Below, one piece after another: positions 30 through 10,172 of a DNA stretch of 10,172 nucleotides. Numbering within the stretch: the first letter of the stretch is position 1; each line of letters starts with the position of its first letter. Below the pieces are notes generated by a model that was not told the DNA's origin, ran no database searches, and was given only the letters and a program-made list of their open reading frames with translations. The position numbers and the translations under genes are program-made. The stretch comes from Gemmatimonas sp. UBA2094 (GTDB lineage Bacteria; Gemmatimonadota; Gemmatimonadetes; Gemmatimonadales; Gemmatimonadaceae): positions 4,245 through 14,416 of the forward strand of contig DCZC01000011.1 in assembly GCA_002331565.1 (NCBI GenBank). The letters run 5' to 3'.

Positions 30-1040
30 ATGGCAAAGATTCTCGTCACCGGCGCCGCCGGCTTCATCGGCTACCACACGAGTGAGCGCCTGCTCGCGCG
101 CGGCGACGAGGTGGTGGGACTCGACAACCTGAACGACTACTACGACCCCACGCTCAAGGAGGCGCGCCTCGCGCGACTGCAAGGCGCACCGGGCTTCAAA
201 TTCGTTCGCATGGATCTGGGTGACCGCGCGGGCATCGAGCAGCTCTTCGCCACCGAGCGCTTCGACAAAGTGATCAACCTCGCCGCGCAGGCCGGGGTGC
301 GCTACTCGCTCACCAATCCGCATACGTACATCGACAGCAACCTCGTGGGCTTCCTGCACATCCTCGAGGGGTGCCGGCACCACGGCGTCCAGCACCTCAC
401 GTACGCCAGTTCATCGAGCGTGTACGGCGCCAACACGGCGATGCCCTTCTCGGTGCACCAGAACGTGGATCACCCGCTGTCGCTCTATGCCGCCACGAAG
501 AAGGCCAACGAGCTGATGGCGCACACGTACAGCCATCTGTACGGGCTGCCCACTACGGGGCTGCGCTTCTTCACGGTATACGGACCGTGGGGCCGTCCGG
601 ACATGGCGCTGTTCCTGTTCACCAAGGCCATTCTCGAGGGGCGGCCCATCGACGTGTTCAATCACGGCAGGATGCGCCGGGATTTCACGTTCATCGACGA
701 CATCGTGGAAGGGGTGATCCGTACCAGCGATCACACGGCGCCGGTGAACGCCGACTGGGACAGCAACCACCCCGACCCGGCCACCAGCAAGGCCCCGTAC
801 CGCCTCTACAACATCGGGAACAACAATCCCGTCGAGCTCATGCATCTCATCGGCACGCTCGAGCAGGCGCTGGGACGTACGGCGGCGAAGAACATGCTGC
901 CCATGCAGATGGGGGATGTGCCGGCCACCTACGCAGACGTACAGGCGCTCGAGCGGGACGTCGGCTTCGCGCCGAAGACGAGTATCGAAACCGGCGTAGC
1001 GCGTTTCGTGGAGTGGTACCGCTCGTACTATGGCACCTGA
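30..1040 (+). CDS. NAD-dependent epimerase, UDP-glucuronate 4-epimerase-like
   Basis: A 336-residue extended short-chain dehydrogenase that most resembles UDP-glucuronate 4-epimerases (LpsL/CapI/GAE group). These interconvert UDP-glucuronate and UDP-galacturonate in the cytoplasm to supply capsule, LPS or exopolysaccharide synthesis. Visible features: the Rossmann NAD-binding motif TGAAGFIG (residues 7-14, glycines 8, 11 and 14); an acidic residue after strand 2 (D32) in the group-typical segment LDNLNDYYD (31-39); the serine stretch ASSSSVYG (126-133); and the catalytic Y153-x-x-x-K157 pair. The segment [12 protein letters not shown] (184-195) and GDVPATYAD (295-303) are typical of the UDP-glucuronate epimerase branch. 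The length is normal for the family. The ATG at 30 has AGGA at 19-22, seven bases upstream, which supports this start. It is the only plus-strand gene and converges with the SURF1 gene. The exact sugar substrate (glucuronate versus another UDP-sugar) is inferred from motifs and not proven. Confidence 0.93.
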
Positions 1041-1137: not shown

Positions 1138-1857
1138 TCATTTCCGCCTCGTTCGGGTGAACGCGAGAAATCCGACGACGAAGACGGTCGCAAACGAGAA
1201 CCACTGCAGCGCGTAGCTGAGATGCGGGCCCTCCGTGATCGGCGGCGGCGGCACCCGGCTGGGGCGCGTGATGTCCGTCATGGTCGTGTCCCCCAATACC
1301 AGCAGGACGAACGGCGCAACGGGGCGACCGATGAGCGTGGCAATCGAATCGGGATTGAGCAGCCGCATGGCGCGCGGTGACGACTGCATGCGTGCCTGCC
1401 CCGCCCGTACGGGAGGAAACGACGTGAGCAGCGTTTCGACGTGCAGCGTGTCGCTTTCGCGCGCTTTGCCGAAATCCACGGTGCGTCCGTCGGCCGCATA
1501 GAGATAACCGCGCAGCACGAGCACCGCGGTATCGCCCCAGCTCCCGTCGAGTGGATGCACCGGTGTCAGCAGATGCACGCCGGGGGAGCCGTTCTGCGTG
1601 CGCGTGGCGTGTACGAGTTCGTGCTCGTAATCGGCCACGGCGTCGACACGCACGCGCCGCCAGTGCGTGACGCTCGTATCCTGACCGCGAAGATCGGCCA
1701 CGGATAACACGGGCGCCACGCCGCGTTCCGTCACGATCGCGTTCTGCGTGCGACGTTGCTGCAGGCGATCGAGTTGCCAGAGGCCGAGGCGCACGCAAAC
1801 CGCCGCGGCAACGGTCGTGAGGATGCCAAAGGTGATTGTCTTAGCCGTGCTGCTCAT
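1138..1857 (-). CDS. SURF1 family cytochrome oxidase assembly protein
   Basis: A 239-residue inner-membrane protein of the SURF1/Shy1 family, which helps assemble cytochrome c oxidase, probably at the heme a insertion step. The family layout is clear. An N-terminal TM helix (about residues 8-24) runs into the hallmark RLGLWQLDRLQQRR (23-36). A periplasmic domain of about 170 residues follows, with the family-typical LVLRGYL (113-119). The C-terminal signature EGPHLSYALQWFSFA (209-223) leads into the second TM helix (to about 234). Length and two-TM topology match bacterial SURF1. The ATG at 1857 lies 9 bases after the glgB stop codon with only a weak Shine-Dalgarno (GGG), suggesting co-transcription or coupled translation with glgB. 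No cytochrome oxidase subunit genes (ctaCDE) or heme synthesis genes are in this window, so the usual neighbourhood is missing here. Assignment to the family is firm; the oxidase it serves is not visible. Confidence 0.93.
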   Translation of the reverse strand: MSSTAKTITFGILTTVAAAVCVRLGLWQLDRLQQRRTQNAIVTERGVAPVLSVADLRGQDTSVTHWRRVRVDAVADYEHELVHATRTQNGSPGVHLLTPVHPLDGSWGDTAVLVLRGYLYAADGRTVDFGKARESDTLHVETLLTSFPPVRAGQARMQSSPRAMRLLNPDSIATLIGRPVAPFVLLVLGDTTMTDITRPSRVPPPPITEGPHLSYALQWFSFATVFVVGFLAFTRTRRK

Positions 1858-1866
1858 GCGGACCCG

Positions 1867-4179
1867 TTATCTCTCGTTGGCGGCCAAGTGCGTTGGCGCC
1901 TTTGGCCTGTTTCCCTTCTTTGCCTTCTTCTTCGGCGTTGACTCGACTGCGCCGATGGAGGCAGCAGGCCCCTCCTCGGGGAGCGTATCGGGCACGAGCA
2001 CCAGCATGCTGAGCGGTGGCAGCGACATGGCGAGGGAATGCTCGAAGCCGTGATAGGGTACGGCTTCCGCTCGGGCCGTCTCGGGCACCGGAAAGCCACT
2101 GCCGGCGAACTGCGGTGCGTCCGAATTGATGGCCACCCGGTACGTCGCATCGGCGGGTACCCCGAGACGATACGCCGGGCGCGGTACCGGCGTGAGATTG
2201 AGCACCACCAGCGCGTGCTCACGCCCGTCGAAGCGCGCGTACGAGAACACGGACTGCTCACGATCCGCCACGTCGATCCAGCGGTAACCGGCCGGCTCAT
2301 GATCGGCGCGCCACAGGCAGGGCAGCTGCTGATACAGCGCACCAAGCGCCCCCACGTACTCCATGAGCCCGCGGCGACGCGGATCCTCGAGCAGGTGCCA
2401 CTCGAGACTCACATCGTGGTTCCACTCGTGATGCGCACCGAGCTCGACTCCCATGAAGAACAGCGACTTGCCCGGGCGCGTGATGGAGTACCCGATGAGC
2501 GTACGCAGGTTCGCCAGCTTCTGCCACACATCGCCGGGCATCTTCTCCAGCAGCGATTTCTTGAGGTGCACCACTTCGTCGTGTGACAGCGGATTGACGA
2601 ATTTCTCGCTGTACTCGTACCACATCGCGAAGGTGAGCTTGTCGTGCACGCCTTTGCGGAAGAAGGGATCGACCTTGTAGTAGTCGAGGGTATCGTGCAT
2701 CCAGCCCATGTTCCACTTGAACGTGAACCCCAACCCCCCTTCACCGATGGGCGCGGTGACCTTGGGCCACGCAGTGCTCTCCTCGGCGACGGTGATCACC
2801 CCCGGATGCAGCGAATGCACCGCGTGATTGAGCTGCTTGAGGAACGACATCGCGTCGAGGTTCTCGCGTCCGCCGTGCCGATTGCGCAGCCACTGTCCGG
2901 CCGCTCGGCCGTAGTCGAGATACAGCATCGAAGCCACGGCATCCACCCGCAACCCGTCGATGTGAAACTCCTCGATCCAGTAGAGGGCATTCGCCACGAG
3001 GAAATTCCGCACCTCGTGCCGCGCGTAATTGAAGATGTGCGTACCCCATTCGGGGTGATCGCCGAGGCGCGGATCCTCGTGTTCGTAGCAAGCCGTGCCG
3101 TCGAAGCGGCGCAGGGCCCAGTCGTCCTTGGGAAAGTGCGCTGGCACCCAATCGAGTAGCACCCCAATGCCGGCCTGGTGCAACGTGTCCACGAGGGCGC
3201 GAAAGTCGTCTGGCGTGCCGAAGCGCGACGTGGGCGCGTAATAGCCGCCCACCTGATACCCCCACGAGCCGCCGAATGGATGCTCCTGCACCGGGAGGAG
3301 CTCCACGTGCGTGAACCCCAACCGGCGCACGTGATCCGCCAGCTTGGGCGCGATCTCGCCGTAGCTCAGCATCCGGTTGTCCGCACCGCGCACCCACGAA
3401 CCAAGATGGACCTCATACACGATCATCGGCTCGCGCAGCGGATCGCTCTCGGCGCGCTGCGACAACCAGGCGCCGTCGTTCCACGCATACCCGCTGCGCC
3501 CCTGCACGATGCTCGCGACGCCGGGTGACTGTTCGAGCTTGAACGCATACGGATCGGTCTTCACGCAGATATCACCGCTGCGCGCAAGAATCTCGTACTT
3601 GTACAGCGCCTCGGCTTCGACACCGGGCACGAAGAGTTCGAACACGCCGCTGGTGCCCAGCATGCGCATGGTGTGCGCGCGGCCGTCCCACGCATTGAAC
3701 GACCCGATCACACTGACTCGCACCGCGTTCGGGGCCCAGACAGCGAAGGCCGTGCCACGCACCCCGTCGATCTCGCACGGATGCGCGCCAAGCTTCTCCC
3801 ACAGCCGCAGATGCCGCCCCTCGTTGAAGAGGTGCAGGTCCATCTCGCGCAGTGTGGGCGCAAAGCGATACGGGTCGTGCTGCATCCGGCGCTGCCCCTC
3901 ACCATCGGTTACGACCAGACGATACGGGATCGGCAGCCGACGGTCCGAGAGAAAGGCGACGAACAGTCCGTGAGCCTCACGCCGCATCGGGAATTCGTGC
4001 TCACCCACCAGCACCGCCACCTGGGCGGCGGTCGGCAAAAAGGCGCGCACCATCACCCCGTTCACTCCGTCGACGACGGCCGCATGAGCACCCAACAGGT
4101 CATGCGGATGCATGGACTCCCCGCAAACCAGACGGCTTGCGGCAGTACTGTCGGCGGGGGGCACGCGGAGCGTGGTCAT
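1867..4179 (-). CDS. glgB: 1,4-alpha-glucan branching enzyme (GH13)
   Basis: A 770-residue cytoplasmic glycogen branching enzyme, which cuts alpha-1,4 glucan chains and re-attaches the piece as an alpha-1,6 branch. Domains in order: an N1 domain (about 15-125), a CBM48 domain (about 140-225, with FAVWAPNA at 145-152 and GSFNAWDG at 159-166), the GH13 barrel (about 250-610) and a C-terminal beta domain (about 640-735). Catalytic positions are intact: nucleophile D413 in GLRVDAVAS, acid/base E466 in VAEEST, and D534 in LSHDEVVH. Region I is DWVPAHFP (343-350). No Shine-Dalgarno precedes the ATG at 4179. An internal ATG at 4113 has GGGGAG three bases upstream. However, residues 17-32 (LVCGES then HPHDLLGAH) align with the conserved N-terminus of long-form GlgB, which favours 4179. 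After about residue 735 there is an unusual lysine- and proline-rich tail (KKKAKKGNRPK). glgA, glgC and glgP are absent from this window. Confidence 0.96.
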   Translation of the reverse strand: MTTLRVPPADSTAASRLVCGESMHPHDLLGAHAAVVDGVNGVMVRAFLPTAAQVAVLVGEHEFPMRREAHGLFVAFLSDRRLPIPYRLVVTDGEGQRRMQHDPYRFAPTLREMDLHLFNEGRHLRLWEKLGAHPCEIDGVRGTAFAVWAPNAVRVSVIGSFNAWDGRAHTMRMLGTSGVFELFVPGVEAEALYKYEILARSGDICVKTDPYAFKLEQSPGVASIVQGRSGYAWNDGAWLSQRAESDPLREPMIVYEVHLGSWVRGADNRMLSYGEIAPKLADHVRRLGFTHVELLPVQEHPFGGSWGYQVGGYYAPTSRFGTPDDFRALVDTLHQAGIGVLLDWVPAHFPKDDWALRRFDGTACYEHEDPRLGDHPEWGTHIFNYARHEVRNFLVANALYWIEEFHIDGLRVDAVASMLYLDYGRAAGQWLRNRHGGRENLDAMSFLKQLNHAVHSLHPGVITVAEESTAWPKVTAPIGEGGLGFTFKWNMGWMHDTLDYYKVDPFFRKGVHDKLTFAMWYEYSEKFVNPLSHDEVVHLKKSLLEKMPGDVWQKLANLRTLIGYSITRPGKSLFFMGVELGAHHEWNHDVSLEWHLLEDPRRRGLMEYVGALGALYQQLPCLWRADHEPAGYRWIDVADREQSVFSYARFDGREHALVVLNLTPVPRPAYRLGVPADATYRVAINSDAPQFAGSGFPVPETARAEAVPYHGFEHSLAMSLPPLSMLVLVPDTLPEEGPAASIGAVESTPKKKAKKGNRPKAPTHLAANER

Positions 4180-4230: not shown

Positions 4231-5052
4231 TCAGAACAGCGTGGGTTGCTCCCCGATGGACAGCGGGTCGACCGTGGGTATCGCGAGCCGCTCCTGCAGC
4301 ATGCGCACCGACGCCGGCGCATGCCCGGCGAAATGATTGTTCACGAAGCCGAAGATCTCCCGCACCTGTCCCTGCAACACGGGCATCATGCGCGCCCACG
4401 CGTCGAGTTCGACGCTCCGGTCCACCTGCAGATGCGAGTAATCGGTGATCGTGCGATCGGGGCCCATCCACCGCAGGTAGGTGAAGTCTGCCGTGGGCTG
4501 CTCACACAACTTCAGCAGCCATTCGCGCGGGATCCACTTGCCGTCACTCAGCGCCAAGGCGACGCGATGCTCACGCAGCAGGTCGAGCACCCGGCGTCGT
4601 ACCCACGCCGGCTGACGGAACTCCACGGCAAAGCGCAGATCGCGGGGGAGCAGCTGCAGGAACTCGGCGAAGGCCTTGCCCTGCCGCGGGGCGAAGTAGG
4701 GGGCGCATTGAATGAGAATGGGCCCCAGCCTGGAGCCGAGTTCGCGCATCCGCTCCGTGAACGCAAACAGCAGCTCCTCACACCCGGCGAAGCGCCGCTC
4801 GTGGGTGATCTGCTGCGGCATCTTGCAGGTGAAGACGAAGCCGTCGGGCACCCGCTGCGCCCAGCCCCGCACGGTACTCGCCGGCGGGATGGCGTAGAAG
4901 GTGGAATCGATCTCCACGGTCTCGAACGCACGCGCGAACGTCCGCAGGAAATCTGCGGGCCGAGTGCCGGTCGGATAGAACGGGCCCACCCACGCGGGGT
5001 AGTTCCATCCCTGTGTCCCGAAACGTACGCGCGCGGGATTCACCGGCGGCAT
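4231..5052 (-). CDS. DUF72 family protein (YecE-like TIM barrel)
   Basis: A 273-residue protein of the DUF72/COG1801 (YecE) family, predicted cytoplasmic TIM-barrel proteins of unproven biochemical function. Family marks: GTQGWNYPAWVGPFYP near the N-terminus, FETVEIDSTFYAIP, FTCKMPQQITH, AVEFRQPAW and the C-terminal FVNNHFAGHAP segment. Length is normal. The frame is open back to 5157, but that extension lies inside the preceding lipocalin gene and is arginine-rich non-family sequence. The ATG at 5052 sits 5 bases after the upstream stop codon, just before the conserved core (RVRFGTQGW), and is chosen as the start. Its Shine-Dalgarno is poor, so translation may depend on ribosomes finishing the upstream gene. 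It is the last gene of the tightly packed transporter run. Whether it works with the transporter is unknown; close packing is the only evidence. Confidence 0.9.
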   Translation of the reverse strand: MPPVNPARVRFGTQGWNYPAWVGPFYPTGTRPADFLRTFARAFETVEIDSTFYAIPPASTVRGWAQRVPDGFVFTCKMPQQITHERRFAGCEELLFAFTERMRELGSRLGPILIQCAPYFAPRQGKAFAEFLQLLPRDLRFAVEFRQPAWVRRRVLDLLREHRVALALSDGKWIPREWLLKLCEQPTADFTYLRWMGPDRTITDYSHLQVDRSVELDAWARMMPVLQGQVREIFGFVNNHFAGHAPASVRMLQERLAIPTVDPLSIGEQPTLF

Positions 5053-5057
5053 GTGCG

Positions 5058-6572
5058 TCAGCGATACGTTTCGAAGAATCCGCGGCCGCGGCCGTCGAGC
5101 GCCTTGCCTCGGATGCGGCCGCTGATCCGGGCCTCGCCGGCCATCTGCACGAACCACGGCCGCGCGAGGCCACGCGCATAGTCGCCCTCGCCACGCTCGG
5201 CGAGCCCCTGGCGCGTGTCGGTGGCCACGGCATCGTCAACCGCGAGCTGCACGCGCAACGTATCGGCCCCGCGCACGTCGAACAGGGTCGCCGTGGCCGG
5301 GACCGCGAGCGGACCGTCCGCAGTCTGTACCACGCGCGCGTCGTCGTACCGGATGACCTTGGGACGGAAGAGCGCGAGAAACCCGCGCGCATCGGTGACG
5401 TACACGAAGAGCGGCGAAGTCCCACCCGCCGTGTCTTCCGGCTTTACGCGCCCATACAGCAGCGTATACTCGCCGGCGCGCGTGGCACCCCACTCCCAGG
5501 TGACGCCACGCCAGCCGCCCCAGTTGTGGTCGTGGTACGCCTGCGCATCCACGTACTCGTCGCACCGCGAGGCCACGCAGATGCGCCCCGTAGCCGTGGC
5601 GCGCAATGCCGGTACTGCGTAGCCCGAGGCGAAGTCCCCGCTCGCGAGCGTCGCGCCGGGAAACTCCACCCGGGGAGCGGGGCTCACGACGAGATCGACG
5701 GCCAGCGTCGCACCACTACTCGCTTCGCGTACGACCGACTTCACCGCGTAGCGACCGTCGGGCAGCACGGTCACGCTGCCTTCACCGATACGGACATCGG
5801 CGTCACGACGGCTGAAGCGCACCCGATCGCGCGTCACGTTGGTCACGAAACGTCGAGGCGCCTTCCCCCGCTCGTGCAACGTGACGAGCAGCTGGCCACC
5901 CCAGCGGTCCCCGCGCACGTCTCCGCCGACGAGGAACGTGATGAATGCCCAACGCGACGCGTCGGGCGACAGGACGTTGAAGTAGTGCCACTCGCCCCAT
6001 GAGTCGGCGTTTGCGAGTCCGTCGTTGGGCCGGTGAAAATGATCGACGTCGTGCCGCAGCTCGGCCAGTGTTGGGGCGGTCCAGCGCCGGTCACCCGCGT
6101 CGTCGTCCCACGCCCCTTGTGCGATTTCGGGCATGGCGCCGAGCGTGCGTGTCGCCGACGGCACTTCACCGGTGGCGCGAACAGGATGTTCCACCCCATC
6201 CGGCGTGGTGAGATACAGCAGTTTTCCCTCGAGCTGCGGCGCCGCCACGGTCACCGCATCGGCCAATCGCGGACTGCTCAACACCTGCCGGTGCACGAAC
6301 CGCGCGTTGGGCACCGAGAAGAACAGTCCGCCCAATCCGCCTGTGGTGAGTACCTCGATGTCGATACCCTCCGGCAACACCGTCACCTGTCCGCCACCCA
6401 CGAGCCGCTCCTGACTGGCCTGCCTCACCATGGCTTCGCCCACCGCCAGCAGCACGACCATCACCCCCACGCCCACACCGAAGCCGCCACACAACAGCAA
6501 GGCACGCCACGGCCGCGAGGTAACGGTGCGCCAGGCCAACAGCCACGACGTCCCCAGGCGCTCTCTCTGCAT
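5058..6572 (-). CDS. Permease N-terminal half fused to CrtC/AttH lipocalin-like domain
   Basis: A 504-residue two-part protein. Residues 1-46 form a cytoplasmic start (WRTVTSRPWRALLL) and one TM helix (about 24-46), as in FtsX/MacB permeases. Residues about 47-180 match the first half of a MacB-type periplasmic domain: GGQVTVLPEG (60-69) aligns with GYQLRVSPKG of the neighbouring permease (7281-8498), and a later segment ends in GAMP (145-148) where that permease has GRDMP. From about 190 the protein is a CrtC/AttH (lipocalin-like) domain: WGEWHYFNVL (192-201), the hallmark YHDHNWGGW (346-354) with TWEWG (358-362), and the C-terminal GRGFFETYR. C332 and C337 could form a disulfide. The three C-terminal permease helices are absent. 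The lipocalin should therefore face the periplasm, anchored by one helix. CrtC/AttH proteins are thought to bind hydrophobic molecules; some hydrate carotenoids, but no carotenoid gene is nearby. The ATG at 6572 has AAGG (6579-6582) six bases upstream, overlapping the ATPase stop codon. Confidence 0.88.
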   Translation of the reverse strand: MQRERLGTSWLLAWRTVTSRPWRALLLCGGFGVGVGVMVVLLAVGEAMVRQASQERLVGGGQVTVLPEGIDIEVLTTGGLGGLFFSVPNARFVHRQVLSSPRLADAVTVAAPQLEGKLLYLTTPDGVEHPVRATGEVPSATRTLGAMPEIAQGAWDDDAGDRRWTAPTLAELRHDVDHFHRPNDGLANADSWGEWHYFNVLSPDASRWAFITFLVGGDVRGDRWGGQLLVTLHERGKAPRRFVTNVTRDRVRFSRRDADVRIGEGSVTVLPDGRYAVKSVVREASSGATLAVDLVVSPAPRVEFPGATLASGDFASGYAVPALRATATGRICVASRCDEYVDAQAYHDHNWGGWRGVTWEWGATRAGEYTLLYGRVKPEDTAGGTSPLFVYVTDARGFLALFRPKVIRYDDARVVQTADGPLAVPATATLFDVRGADTLRVQLAVDDAVATDTRQGLAERGEGDYARGLARPWFVQMAGEARISGRIRGKALDGRGRGFFETYR

Positions 6573-6580
6573 GCGATGCC

Positions 6581-7288
6581 TTACCCGTTCACGCGCGGCG
6601 TATCACTCGCCACGCGTCCGTCGAGCAGGCGAATCACACGACGGGCGGAGTTGGCAACCACGCTGTCGTGCGTCACGAACACGAGCGTCGTGCCATCACG
6701 ATTGAGCTGCCCGAACAGCGCCAGCAGCTTCTCTCCGGTCGTGGCGTCGAGCTCGCCGGTGGGCTCGTCAGCGAGCAGCAACGCCGGCTCGTTGGCGAGT
6801 GCGCGGGCAATCGCCACACGCTGCTGTTCACCGCCCGACAATTGCGTGGGCCGGTGCCCACGCCGGTCGCCGAGCCCCACGTAACCGAGCAGCTCGGAGG
6901 CTCGCGCTCGGCGCGCCGCCTTGCCCAAACCGGCCTCGGCGAGGGGCAACTCTACGTTCTCCTGCGCCGAAAGGGTCGGCATGAGGTAGAAGCGCTGGAA
7001 CACGAACCCGATGTGCCGGAGCCGGAACGCCGTGGCCTCGGCATCACCGAGTTGCGCCGTGTCACGGCCGTTCACGAACACGCGTCCGGAACTGGGCGCA
7101 TCGATGGCGCCAAGCAGATGCAGCAGCGTGCTCTTGCCGCACCCCGATGGCCCCGTGATAGCGGCGAACTCGCCTCGCGCGATGTCGAGATCGATGCCGC
7201 GCACGGCGTGCACCTCGGCATCACCCATGGTGTACCGGCGGTGTACCTGTTCGCAGCGGATCACCGAACCGGAAAATGCGTCAGCCAA
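6581..7288 (-). CDS. ABC transporter ATPase, LolD/MacB type
   Basis: A 235-residue cytoplasmic ATPase of the LolD/MacB/FtsE group, which powers FtsX-type permeases that work on the outer face of the inner membrane and do not carry substrate through a channel. All motifs are intact: Walker A GPSGCGKST (46-54), Q-loop Q98 in GFVFQRFYLMP, signature LSGGEQQRVAIARAL (150-164), Walker B and D-loop ALLLADEPTGELD (169-181) and switch histidine H207 (FVTHD). The start is a TTG at 7288, supported by GAGGA at 7294-7298, five bases upstream. The gene overlaps the preceding permease gene by 8 bases, indicating translational coupling. Its stop codon lies 8 bases before the lipocalin gene. It is expected to pair with the two permease products of this operon and not with an unrelated system, since all lie in the same packed run. 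The substrate is unknown. Confidence 0.95.
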   Translation of the reverse strand: MADAFSGSVIRCEQVHRRYTMGDAEVHAVRGIDLDIARGEFAAITGPSGCGKSTLLHLLGAIDAPSSGRVFVNGRDTAQLGDAEATAFRLRHIGFVFQRFYLMPTLSAQENVELPLAEAGLGKAARRARASELLGYVGLGDRRGHRPTQLSGGEQQRVAIARALANEPALLLADEPTGELDATTGEKLLALFGQLNRDGTTLVFVTHDSVVANSARRVIRLLDGRVASDTPRVNG

Positions 7289-8498
7289 CGGCGTCCTCGC
7301 GCAACGAGCGCACGATGGGGATGGAAGCGGCCTGCCACGCCGGCAACAGACCGGCGAGGGTACCGGAGATCAAGAGGAGCGCGAGTGATTGCCACGCGGC
7401 CTCGGGGCTCCACAGAAAGAAGTCGAACGCCGCCGGCAGCCCCGGGAAGTCGCGGAGAATACCGTTCAGCCAACGCGCCGTGACGAGCCCCAGCAGCAGA
7501 CCACCGGCGATGCCGGCGCTGCTCAACAGGAATCCTTCGAGGAATACCTGACGCAGTACCCCGCCCTTCTGTGTACCGATGGCGCGCAGCACGGCGATTT
7601 CGCCCCGTCGCTCATTCACGGAGAGTGTGACCAACGTGGCCACGAGCAGGAAGCCGATGCCAAGGCTGATGGCGCCAAGCACAAACGCCAGCTGGCGGAA
7701 GTACGACAACCGCTCCTCGACCTGACGGATGGCCGTTTCGGTGCTGATCGCTGTGACGCGCGGTTGCGACGCGGCGATCCAGCTGCGTACCGCTTCCACG
7801 CTCACCGAGTCGCCCTTGCGGCTTTCGGCCATCGCCAGCGATATCCGATCGCGGTACTCGGCGCCGAGCAGCGTACGGACTTCCTGCAGCGGCAGCGCCA
7901 TCACCGGCGTTTCCGCCGGCACGTAGAAGAAGCGGCCTTCTCCCGCGAGCACCACGACACGCGACCTCGCCGTGGTGCGCAACTGCGCATCGATGCCCGC
8001 CGCCACCGTCAGTGTATCACCCAGTTTGCGGCCGCTGCGTACGAGGAACATGCGATTGACCACTGCCGGCAGCGGAATAGCAGCCGCGGCGCCGTTGCGG
8101 GGCGCGGGCATATCCCGCCCCGCCTCGAGCACGTAGTCGCCCTGCACATCGGCCTCGAGCCCCAGCGTGAACACCGACGGGAAAGCCTGCGACGGCAACG
8201 CGAGCGTGGTCCCGAGCGAGGGACTCACCGCCTTGATATCGGGGTTCGTGCGCAGCGCCTCCACGATGGCCGTGGCCCCGTCGATGGTGGCCTCGCTGTC
8301 GAATGGCAACGTGCCCTTGGGTGACACGCGCAACTGGTAGCCACGCGTAAGCAGCAGCGAGCGGAAACTTGCGCGCATGCCGGTGGCGAGCATCACCATG
8401 TCGAGGAGCAGCGCTGCGGCCACGGCAATGCCGAGCACGGCGAGGATCGTGCGCGCCGGATGCCGCCGCAAGGTGGCGAGCGCCAATGTCGTGCGCAT
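7281..8498 (-). CDS. ABC transporter permease, full-length FtsX/MacB type
   Basis: A 405-residue inner-membrane permease with the standard four-helix FtsX layout: TM1 about residues 16-38, a periplasmic MacB-like domain of about 225 residues (39-265), then TM2 (266-292), TM3 (317-345) and TM4 (364-390). The cytoplasmic coupling segment VNERRGEIAVLRAIG (294-308) after TM2 is the family hallmark that contacts the ATPase. The mid-domain segment VVNRMFLVRSGRKLGDTLTV (146-165) marks the second half of the periplasmic domain. The start is placed at ATG 8498 because GGAG (8505-8508) lies six bases upstream. An ATG at 8504 touches the GGAG directly, and the open frame back to 8591 is shadow coding inside the preceding gene. 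The stop codon overlaps the ATPase gene. It serves as the internal reference for judging the two partial permease pieces in the same operon. Confidence 0.93.
   Translation of the reverse strand: MRTTLALATLRRHPARTILAVLGIAVAAALLLDMVMLATGMRASFRSLLLTRGYQLRVSPKGTLPFDSEATIDGATAIVEALRTNPDIKAVSPSLGTTLALPSQAFPSVFTLGLEADVQGDYVLEAGRDMPAPRNGAAAAIPLPAVVNRMFLVRSGRKLGDTLTVAAGIDAQLRTTARSRVVVLAGEGRFFYVPAETPVMALPLQEVRTLLGAEYRDRISLAMAESRKGDSVSVEAVRSWIAASQPRVTAISTETAIRQVEERLSYFRQLAFVLGAISLGIGFLLVATLVTLSVNERRGEIAVLRAIGTQKGGVLRQVFLEGFLLSSAGIAGGLLLGLVTARWLNGILRDFPGLPAAFDFFLWSPEAAWQSLALLLISGTLAGLLPAWQAASIPIVRSLREDAVG
7294..7298 (-). promoter_or_regulatory. Ribosome binding site for the TTG start of the ATPase
   Basis: GAGGA on the minus strand ends five bases before the TTG at 7288. 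It lies within the last codons of the upstream permease gene. It decides the ATPase start, since no ATG is present nearby and the next candidate (GTG nine codons in) has no Shine-Dalgarno. Confidence 0.6.
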
Positions 8499-8504
8499 GC
8501 TCAT

Positions 8505-8508
8505 CTCC
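8505..8508 (-). promoter_or_regulatory. Ribosome binding site deciding the full permease start
   Basis: GGAG on the minus strand is six bases from the ATG at 8498 and directly abuts the ATG at 8504. The spacing favours 8498, giving a 405-residue product that begins MRTTLALATL. Confidence 0.6.
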
Positions 8509-8517
8509 GTCCGCGCC

Positions 8518-9411
8518 TCATCGTCCAAGCAGCGTGAGGGGCGGCGTGCGCACCAGCCGCCATGCCGCCACGGCACCCGCGCCGATACCAAGCACGAGAC
8601 TCGTGAGGGTCGCGAAGACGAAGATCTCGGGTGTGAGCAGCGCGAACAGCAGCGGCGTGCGGTAGACCTGCTGGAAGTGCACGTTCACGATGAGGCTCGA
8701 CACCCAGCCGATTCCGGCCCCGATGGCACTGCCGATGACGCTCACTACGGCCGCTTCGATGACGATGGAGCGGATGATCGTGCCCTGCGAGATACCCATG
8801 AGGCGCAGTGCGGCAATGTCGCGCCGCCGTTCCTCCACGCTGAGCAGCAGGAGGCAAAGCAGAAAGACGGCGCTGGCTACGACGGTGATCAGCCCGATCG
8901 CGCGATGAAAGCGCTCCACCACGCGGAAGGTGCGAGAACTCTGCACGGCCACATCGGCCGACTTGTGCGCGCGGAAGCCGAAGGCCACGTGATTGATGCG
9001 CGCAACCGCCGAGTCCACCGGCACGCCGTCGGGTACGCCCACGGCAAAGCGATCGACCCGATCATCGAGCCCGAGCAATCCCTGCAGGTGATCAAGGTGC
9101 GTGCGGATGCGGTATTCGCGGCGTGCGACCTCGGCCGGATCGGCCTTGCGTTCGAACACGGCGGCGATACGCACGGTGTCACCCGTCTCACCGGGTTTGC
9201 CGGTCAGTCGCGCGAGGCTGCCGGGGCGAAGGACGAAATCCTCGGCCATGCGCGCATCGATGGCGATCCCGCGGTACGCCGGTGGTGTGCGGCCGTAGGT
9301 CGGCGAGAGCGCGGTGTCGCCCTGCGCCGCCAGCGGTGCGGACAGCGGCGCCGCCGCCAACGCCACGACCACCGCGGCCATGCGAATCAGTCGCACCGGT
9401 ATGGATTCCAC
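8518..9411 (-). CDS. Short FtsX-type permease with signal-peptide-like N-terminus
   Basis: A 297-residue permease carrying only the second half of the FtsX/MacB fold. The first 30 residues (RLIRMAAVVVALAAAPLS then APLAAQ) look like a cleavable signal peptide: basic start, alanine-rich core, small residues before Q30. The periplasmic part begins in the middle of a MacB-type domain. GIAIDARMAEDFVLRPGS (48-65) aligns with residues 145-161 of the full permease, so about 95 N-terminal residues including an ordinary TM1 are missing. Three TM helices follow (about 170-192, 215-240, 258-283), with the coupling segment EERRRDIAALRLMG (193-206) and the normal family tail. The missing half is what the lipocalin protein at 5058-6572 carries. 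The GTG start at 9411 has AGGAA at 9418-9422, six bases upstream. If the N-terminus is not cleaved it would act as TM1, giving four helices with a shortened periplasmic domain. Confidence 0.85.
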   Translation of the reverse strand: MESIPVRLIRMAAVVVALAAAPLSAPLAAQGDTALSPTYGRTPPAYRGIAIDARMAEDFVLRPGSLARLTGKPGETGDTVRIAAVFERKADPAEVARREYRIRTHLDHLQGLLGLDDRVDRFAVGVPDGVPVDSAVARINHVAFGFRAHKSADVAVQSSRTFRVVERFHRAIGLITVVASAVFLLCLLLLSVEERRRDIAALRLMGISQGTIIRSIVIEAAVVSVIGSAIGAGIGWVSSLIVNVHFQQVYRTPLLFALLTPEIFVFATLTSLVLGIGAGAVAAWRLVRTPPLTLLGR

Positions 9412-9431: not shown

Positions 9432-10172
9432 TCAGCGCGCCGGTTTCCGGGTCCGCGGGCGAGCGCTCGTGGCGTCGCGGGAGCGATCGGGGCTCACCGC
9501 GGTCGGGGCGGAATGCACGTGGGCGGACGCAGGCATGGTGGCGGTCATCGATTCCACCAACACCTGGGCGGCCAGATTGGGTCCCACCACCGGCTCACAC
9601 GCGCCGACCCGCAGCGTGAGGGGGCCGTCGAACGGCGCACGGGCCACCAGCGTGATTTCGGCGCCGGGCTGCAGCGCGATCTCGGCGAGGTAGCGCAGTA
9701 GCGACGGGTCCTTGTCGCTCACCCGCACCATGCGCGCCTGTTCGCCGACCGCGAGATCGGCCAGCGTGCGGTGACGGCGCTCGTCGACGACGCCGTCGGC
9801 CGTGGGAATGGGCGCACCGTGTGGATCGGCCGTGGGGTTACCAAGCGCGGCGGCCATGCGATCGATCAGCTCGTCGGAGGCGGCATGTTCGAGCCGCTCC
9901 GCTTCGTCGTGTACGCGGTCCCACGGGTAGCCGAGCACTCGCGTGAGATACGACTCGAGGATGCGGTGACGCCGGATGGTGCGCAGGGCCGCCCGACGCC
10001 CCAGCGCGGTGAGCTGCACCCCGCGGTACGGCACATGATCGAGGAAGCCCTGCGAGGCCAGCCGGCGGATCATTCCCGTCACCGATGCGGGGGCCACCGC
10101 GAGCGCACTCGCCACGTCGGAGGTGGCCGCGGCGCCGCAGCGCGTTTCGAGCTCGTAGATCGCCTTGAGGTA
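9432..10172 (-). CDS. DtxR/MntR-family metal-dependent regulator, 5' end cut
   Basis: 246 residues are visible; the start codon lies beyond the right edge. The frame stays open to base 10172 and reads YLKAIYELETRCGAAATSDV, which matches the conserved first helix of the family, so a GTG at 10115 is not the real start. A winged helix (about residues 17-65, SDVASALAV to YRGVQLTALG) is followed by the metal-binding dimerisation domain with RHRILE and VHDEAERLEHAASDELIDRM. The E-x-x-E-H arrangement (AERLEH) resembles the manganese-sensing MntR pattern; DtxR and IdeR have cysteine at the first position. A C-terminal SH3-like FeoA-type domain follows (LLRYLAEIALQPGAEITLV), then a basic, proline- and serine-rich tail of about 35 residues. 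Such proteins bind DNA when loaded with Mn(II) or Fe(II). The stop lies 20 bases before the permease gene, so it probably heads this operon. Its operator would be outside the window. Confidence 0.92.
   Translation of the reverse strand, partial: YLKAIYELETRCGAAATSDVASALAVAPASVTGMIRRLASQGFLDHVPYRGVQLTALGRRAALRTIRRHRILESYLTRVLGYPWDRVHDEAERLEHAASDELIDRMAAALGNPTADPHGAPIPTADGVVDERRHRTLADLAVGEQARMVRVSDKDPSLLRYLAEIALQPGAEITLVARAPFDGPLTLRVGACEPVVGPNLAAQVLVESMTATMPASAHVHSAPTAVSPDRSRDATSARPRTRKPAR

Follow-up and report, generated by a model that had tools for sequence, protein, structure and literature searches.

The DNA considered here is a 10,172-nucleotide stretch from Gemmatimonas sp. UBA2094 (contig DCZC01000011.1, positions 4,245 to 14,416; hereafter the window). 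It belongs to a draft assembly (GCA_002331565.1) of 243 contigs which is 59% complete. The minus strand of the window carries a four-gene cassette for a putative ATP-binding cassette (ABC) transporter, here called SHORT, P1, ABC ATPase, and LIPO. In transcription order, a DtxR/MntR-type regulator gene is followed by SHORT, P1, the ATPase gene, LIPO, and a DUF72 gene. The regulator and SHORT are separated by 20 bases and SHORT and P1 by 19, P1 and the ATPase gene overlap by 8 bases, and 8 bases lie between the ATPase gene and LIPO. All five open reading frames of an initial annotation, made from the letters of the sequence, were found on the minus strand where it had placed them. It had assumed two ATPases in the complex; one ATPase gene is present. 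The cassette contains the following features:

8518..9411, minus strand: SHORT, 297 amino acids; signal peptide, C-terminal half of a MacB-type periplasmic domain, and the last three transmembrane (TM) helices
9325..9411, minus strand: predicted signal peptide of SHORT (residues 1-29, LAA|Q), occupying the place of the first TM helix (TM1); cleavage site predicted by motif only
8962..9279, minus strand: SHORT residues 45-150, C-terminal half of the periplasmic core domain (profile, Pfam, and model alignment)
8542..8934, minus strand: SHORT residues 160-290, three TM helices, FtsX domain
7281..8498, minus strand: P1, intact 4-TM FtsX/MacB-type permease, 405 amino acids, start ATG at 8498
6581..7288, minus strand: ABC ATPase, LolD/MacB type, overlapping the P1 stop by 8 bases
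5058..6572, minus strand: LIPO, 504 amino acids; TM1, N-terminal half of the periplasmic domain, and an AttH-type double lipocalin
6411..6515, minus strand: LIPO residues 20-54, TM1, the sole predicted TM helix
6153..6404, minus strand: LIPO residues 57-140, N-terminal half of the periplasmic core domain (profile alignment, Pfam ranges of relatives)
5061..6008, minus strand: LIPO residues 189-504, AttH-fold double lipocalin
5517..5537, minus strand: YHDHNWG motif, LIPO residues 346-352, invariant in 53 aligned members

LIPO and SHORT cover complementary parts of the intact permease P1. Profile-profile alignment placed LIPO 8-140 on P1 1-118 (E 3e-5, probability 73%) and SHORT 45-290 on P1 141-394 (E 2e-20, probability 99%), and no match was obtained between LIPO and SHORT (E 0.42 and 0.3). 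The complementary coverage claimed initially is thus retained, with its boundaries (about 1-130 and 145 to the end) revised to these ranges. The MacB_PCD model matched at E <= 0.1 in 38 of 53 LIPO rows and 16 of 46 SHORT rows. In ten relatives whose match ranges were checked, the first part of the domain was found in all five LIPO proteins and the last part in four of five SHORT proteins, the fifth having no match; just three of these nine matches reached the 27 bits curated by Pfam. The FtsX domain (PF02687) was matched in both SHORT (8.4e-19) and P1 (2.9e-15). The window's own LIPO gave no Pfam match, and the model of LIPO alone has low confidence, with a predicted local distance difference test (pLDDT) score below 50 at residues 49-85. 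Its proposed layout of TM1, first half of a MacB-type domain, and lipocalin is nevertheless borne out by the profile alignment, the Pfam ranges of relatives, and the folds.

The predicted helices follow the same division. Four were found in P1, three plus the signal in SHORT, and one in LIPO, and the sum of eight is that of a LolC/LolE-type dimer. Among 120 database relatives of each protein (the best matches, and hence mainly close relatives), 105 SHORT proteins have three helices past residue 100 and 112 LIPO proteins have one. The structure model of SHORT aligns with the later part of the LolC (142-398), LolE (144-413), and MacB (397-643) chains; matches in the fold search also include unrelated helical chains. 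Five residues are invariant in 46 SHORT rows (E194, R195, R203, G206, and E219). They lie in and near the loop by which such permeases are coupled to ATPases.

As a C-terminal half without TM1, SHORT needs some other way for its N-terminus to cross the membrane, and we propose that it is exported by its own signal peptide. The initial annotation correctly described its three C-terminal helices, but the protein does not start in the middle of the domain: its N-terminus resembles a Sec-type signal peptide. A signal-peptidase-like motif, [AVLSTG]xA[QED], occurs within residues 16-75 in 112 of the 120 SHORT relatives, as against 4 of the 120 LIPO relatives. A stricter test (a hydrophobic stretch followed by [AV]xA) was positive in 77 and 7, respectively, whereas a relaxed test did not discriminate (114 and 112). 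Leaders are also visible by eye in more distant SHORT loci, in some rows of which the start is unassigned. The leader evolves fast, with a mean pairwise identity of 17% over residues 1-43 compared to 45% in the domain that follows.

An unsplit form of the second permease was sought among relatives by scoring the SHORT region against 7999 candidates of about 350-1115 amino acids, and no close one was found. Because scoring was restricted to the candidates with the most words in common, the search may have overlooked an unsplit relative at greater distance. Scores below E 1e-5 were obtained for 41 candidates. The top two (P0241 and P0242) look chimeric or frame-shifted, and the other 39 are permeases of 747-924 amino acids with two SHORT-like stretches apiece, none above 63 bits. 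Circular permutation from a duplicated permease was dropped as an origin because the first unit of these long permeases is the one that mostly fits best, for SHORT and for P1 alike.

Further genomic analysis yielded 177 cassette loci, 77 from genome_contigs and 100 from the genomes numbered with G, with species partly shared between the two sets. In 144 of them the cassette is complete, in the order SHORT-P1-ATPase-LIPO, and these come from six families (f1, f2, f5, f6, f7, and f9); together with the window they gave 125 rows below 97% identity. In 30 of the 33 incomplete loci the contig ends no more than about 900 bases away. The exceptions are L214 and L223, two loci of genome G156, and L089 (G316), which do not stop at a contig end. 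G156 was rejected as a genome with unlinked halves: its contig contains runs of N and a repeated P1 start, which indicates a scaffolding artefact. This genome is a single contig, and the repeated start (L223, L251) stands at two sites about 0.8 Mb apart. In G316, LIPO (L089 3992-5416, preceded by a frame that we take to be murB-like) and SHORT-P1-ATPase (L249 2193-5123) are both present on different contigs, through either a real separation of the cassette or misassembly.

The two halves also occur together. Among 298 genomes sampled across the phylum, strong LIPO matches were found in 111 and SHORT in 112; both halves were present in 110, LIPO only in one, SHORT only in two, and neither in 185. 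The three exceptions are cut at contig ends: LIPO of G026 lies about 960 bases from the contig start, the contig of G234 ends 48 bases past the ATPase gene, and in G205 SHORT is a fragment at the edge of a contig. A search for either half alone therefore did not overturn the initial proposal. These counts leave out weak LIPO matches, all below 74 bits (G122, G146, G198, G165, G260, G304, and G061). The Fisher p-value is 9e-79, which given shared ancestry is no true probability. Five further genomes were reached via loci; four have a SHORT match, and G319, whose LIPO is cut by the contig end, has none. Of the single-contig genomes from the same genus, G028 and G029 carry the full cassette and G020 carries neither half.

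Close relatives in the named collections belong to Gemmatimonas and other Gemmatimonadota. The scan of genome_contigs (84,980 species) looked for exact occurrences of peptide patterns taken from LIPO of the window, which limits it to close relatives. Counting Longimicrobium, as we assume, within Gemmatimonadota, all 77 of its loci bear titles of that type except one 'bacterium' and one 'Candidatus Kuenenia' bin (LIPO 74% identical), which is probably mislabelled. A plasmid search returned four Sulfitobacter records with a lipocalin about 24% identical. No SHORT was found in the four, and the gene table of the one record checked, which is incomplete, shows no ABC gene up to 6 kb from the lipocalin.

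Taken together, we consider it probable that the cassette encodes a type VII ABC transporter in which P1 is paired with a second permease split into LIPO and SHORT, and in which a tethered lipocalin may receive hydrophobic cargo. The complex would consist of two permeases on an ATPase dimer, as in MacB and LolCE, with P1 as the ordinary member. The second permease would be split within its periplasmic domain, LIPO giving TM1 and the N-terminal half, and the exported SHORT giving the C-terminal half and TM2-4. Once joined, the parts would hold the AttH lipocalin, at the C-terminus of LIPO, covalently at the periplasmic side of the transporter. With ATP driving the movement of the periplasmic domains, a hydrophobic molecule could be drawn out of the inner membrane and transferred to the lipocalin, which might carry it, hand it on, or modify it chemically. 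Physical assembly of LIPO and SHORT is likely, and the reassembly of the halves suggested at the outset is supported: the signal peptide on SHORT, conservation of the operon, and constraint on the N-terminal half of LIPO all fit assembly in trans. Lipocalins often hold fatty molecules, and the pump may thus bring along its own receptacle for cargo. A hydrophobic substrate and its handover are plausible, and the transporter may serve in export rather than in signalling; the substrate, the direction of transport, and any chemistry are inferred.

A rather unlikely version of this proposal makes the cassette an ABC-driven enzyme. The split permease would dock a domain of the AttH/CrtC fold whose YHDHNWG site modifies an isoprenoid- or sterol-like lipid lifted from the membrane, by chemistry of the hydration, lyase, or cyclase type, and the split would have enabled incorporation of the enzyme. 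Fold relatives of the LIPO lipocalin include kievitone hydratase, 25-phosphosteroid lyase, and [4+2] pericyclases. No Pfam lipocalin or AttH model matched by name in any of the 53 LIPO members, and Tocopherol_cycl matched weakly in five; PF17186 matched nowhere, the controls included, and is therefore uninformative. AttH-like lipocalins also stand alone (L127 6657-7712, L128 6364-7602, L129 5857-7209, and L130 5778-6815), and the stretches around these four gave no match to the cassette ATPase or permease profiles. The first of them, from G122, is a distant LIPO-like lipocalin (73 bits) which shares YHDHNWG, in a genome with no SHORT match.

Less likely again, the LIPO N-terminus may be a mere anchor, left over from a permease, that holds the lipocalin at the inner membrane, with SHORT acting beside P1 as a shortened 3-TM permease. 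Membrane anchors are commonly built from one TM helix and one soluble domain. However, the supposed anchor is the most conserved part of LIPO. Over 145 rows, mean pairwise identity is 0.576 in TM1 and 0.570 in the half periplasmic domain, compared to 0.481 in the lipocalin and 0.438 and 0.355 in the two halves of the P1 domain. Against nine relatives, at synonymous divergence (dS) of about 1, median nonsynonymous divergence (dN) is 0.029, 0.094, and 0.191 for TM1, half domain, and lipocalin, respectively; medians were used because the P1 copy of L021 reads in two frames, which inflates its P1 dN. Constraint exceeding that of the lipocalin is more than a plain anchor would need. Moreover, the portion of MacB_PCD missing from SHORT is found in the LIPO N-terminus, and under the anchor explanation the half domain kept by SHORT would stay unpaired.

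Some results nevertheless temper the case for a second permease assembled from LIPO and SHORT. Covariation (mutual information with average product correction, APC; 125 rows, effective number of sequences, Neff, about 95) is enriched between the two half domains, but also between the LIPO half domain and P1, and so does not discriminate. The half domain of SHORT is less constrained (identity 0.45, dN 0.202) than that of LIPO. Finally, the genes adjoin, so much of the co-occurrence could stem from linkage, and the count does not prove dependence.

It is more doubtful still that P1 forms a homodimer with the ATPase while SHORT and the LIPO N-terminus form no permease, leaving both proteins as accessory membrane proteins. 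P1 is complete by itself, and homodimers occur in this family, as in MacB. Yet SHORT keeps both its FtsX domain (8e-19) and its five invariant residues, and the four genes form a tight cassette. A pseudogenized or misassembled permease, which the incomplete draft might suggest, is refuted by complete and conserved copies, with the same split in six families and in two single-contig genomes of the genus and with low dN at dS of about 1.

The genes flanking the cassette do not share its conservation in the case of the regulator (9432-10172, minus strand; DtxR/MntR-type with a FeoA domain, running off the window end). An MntR-type regulator gene with the same orientation lies upstream, at most 400 bases away, in 43 of the 144 complete loci and elsewhere in the locus in 32; it gave no match in 53 despite more than 1.5 kb of sequence, nor in 16 more with less DNA. 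Being scattered or missing, it is placed outside the cassette, and metal transport was rejected as the cassette function because the regulator adjoins SHORT in only those 43 loci. Near the regulator in two single-contig genomes of the genus (L257 8712-10522, L258 7805-9648) are what we take to be UspA-like and Nramp/MntH-like genes. On the other side, the DUF72 frame as listed (4231-5157) shares 100 bases with the LIPO end, an overlap that would disappear if translation began at the in-frame ATG at 5052. The rest of the window presumably encodes a nucleotide-sugar epimerase (30-1040, plus strand), a SURF1-like membrane protein (1138-1857, minus strand), and a glycogen branching enzyme (1867-4179, minus strand).

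In type VII ABC machines the periplasmic domains move against a partner, and the route of cargo to that partner is a live question. Here one permease is apparently cut inside the moving domain and the partner is fused to one piece, offering a natural split-protein system for testing force-transmitting contacts and, with the partner fixed in place, a chance to capture the handover. The proposal also suggests a role for a cassette conserved in Gemmatimonadota. Among the listed records with a product name, LIPO is mostly a 'hypothetical protein' and in one an 'AttH domain-containing protein', and SHORT is annotated only as an ABC or FtsX-like permease. No description of the arrangement was seen in titles or abstract openings among the matches listed from the open-licence PMC literature.

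Compared to known systems, P1 and SHORT both have the FtsX-type C-terminal TM domain (PF02687) of type VII transporters, and TM1 followed by a periplasmic core domain is found in one chain in P1 but only across LIPO and SHORT in the second permease. LolC/LolE/MacB-type permeases have four TM helices per chain, a rule from which the second permease departs; there are 10 in other permeases of type VII. The cassette resembles LolCDE and MacB in its ATPase, which is nearest to LolD/MacB models, and in its FtsX-domain permeases, where TM1 and TM2 flank a large periplasmic domain; like LolC/LolE, it has two different permeases. It differs in that one of these is in two chains, one bearing a lipocalin, and in that the ATPase and permease genes are separate, whereas in MacB they are fused. 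The NCBIfam scores stay far below the cut-offs for LolD (ATPase, 226.0 of 307.75), LolCE (P1 27.9 and SHORT 41.4 of 362.45), and MacB (ATPase, 236.6 of 966 bits). AttEFGH systems combine intact FtsX-like permeases with a separate lipocalin. The suggested membership in this type is therefore partial: LIPO has the AttH-type double lipocalin, but here, unlike in AttEFGH or the DUF2006-type protein NE1406 (2ICH), it follows TM1 and half a periplasmic domain in one fused chain, and the permease is in two pieces. The NE1406/AttH lipocalin family is reported to be associated in genomes with ABC transporters, and a role in lipid transport was found compatible (PMC2954199). YbbAP-TesA works in a similar way: it is described as a type VII ABC transporter that binds a periplasmic enzyme, TesA, and is proposed to supply it with compounds extracted from the membrane (PMC12646458). 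In both, a periplasmic partner on the permease would be the recipient of such compounds; however, TesA is a separate hydrolase and YbbP a single 10-TM chain (PMC12646458), whereas in the Gemmatimonas cassette the partner is fused and the permease is split.
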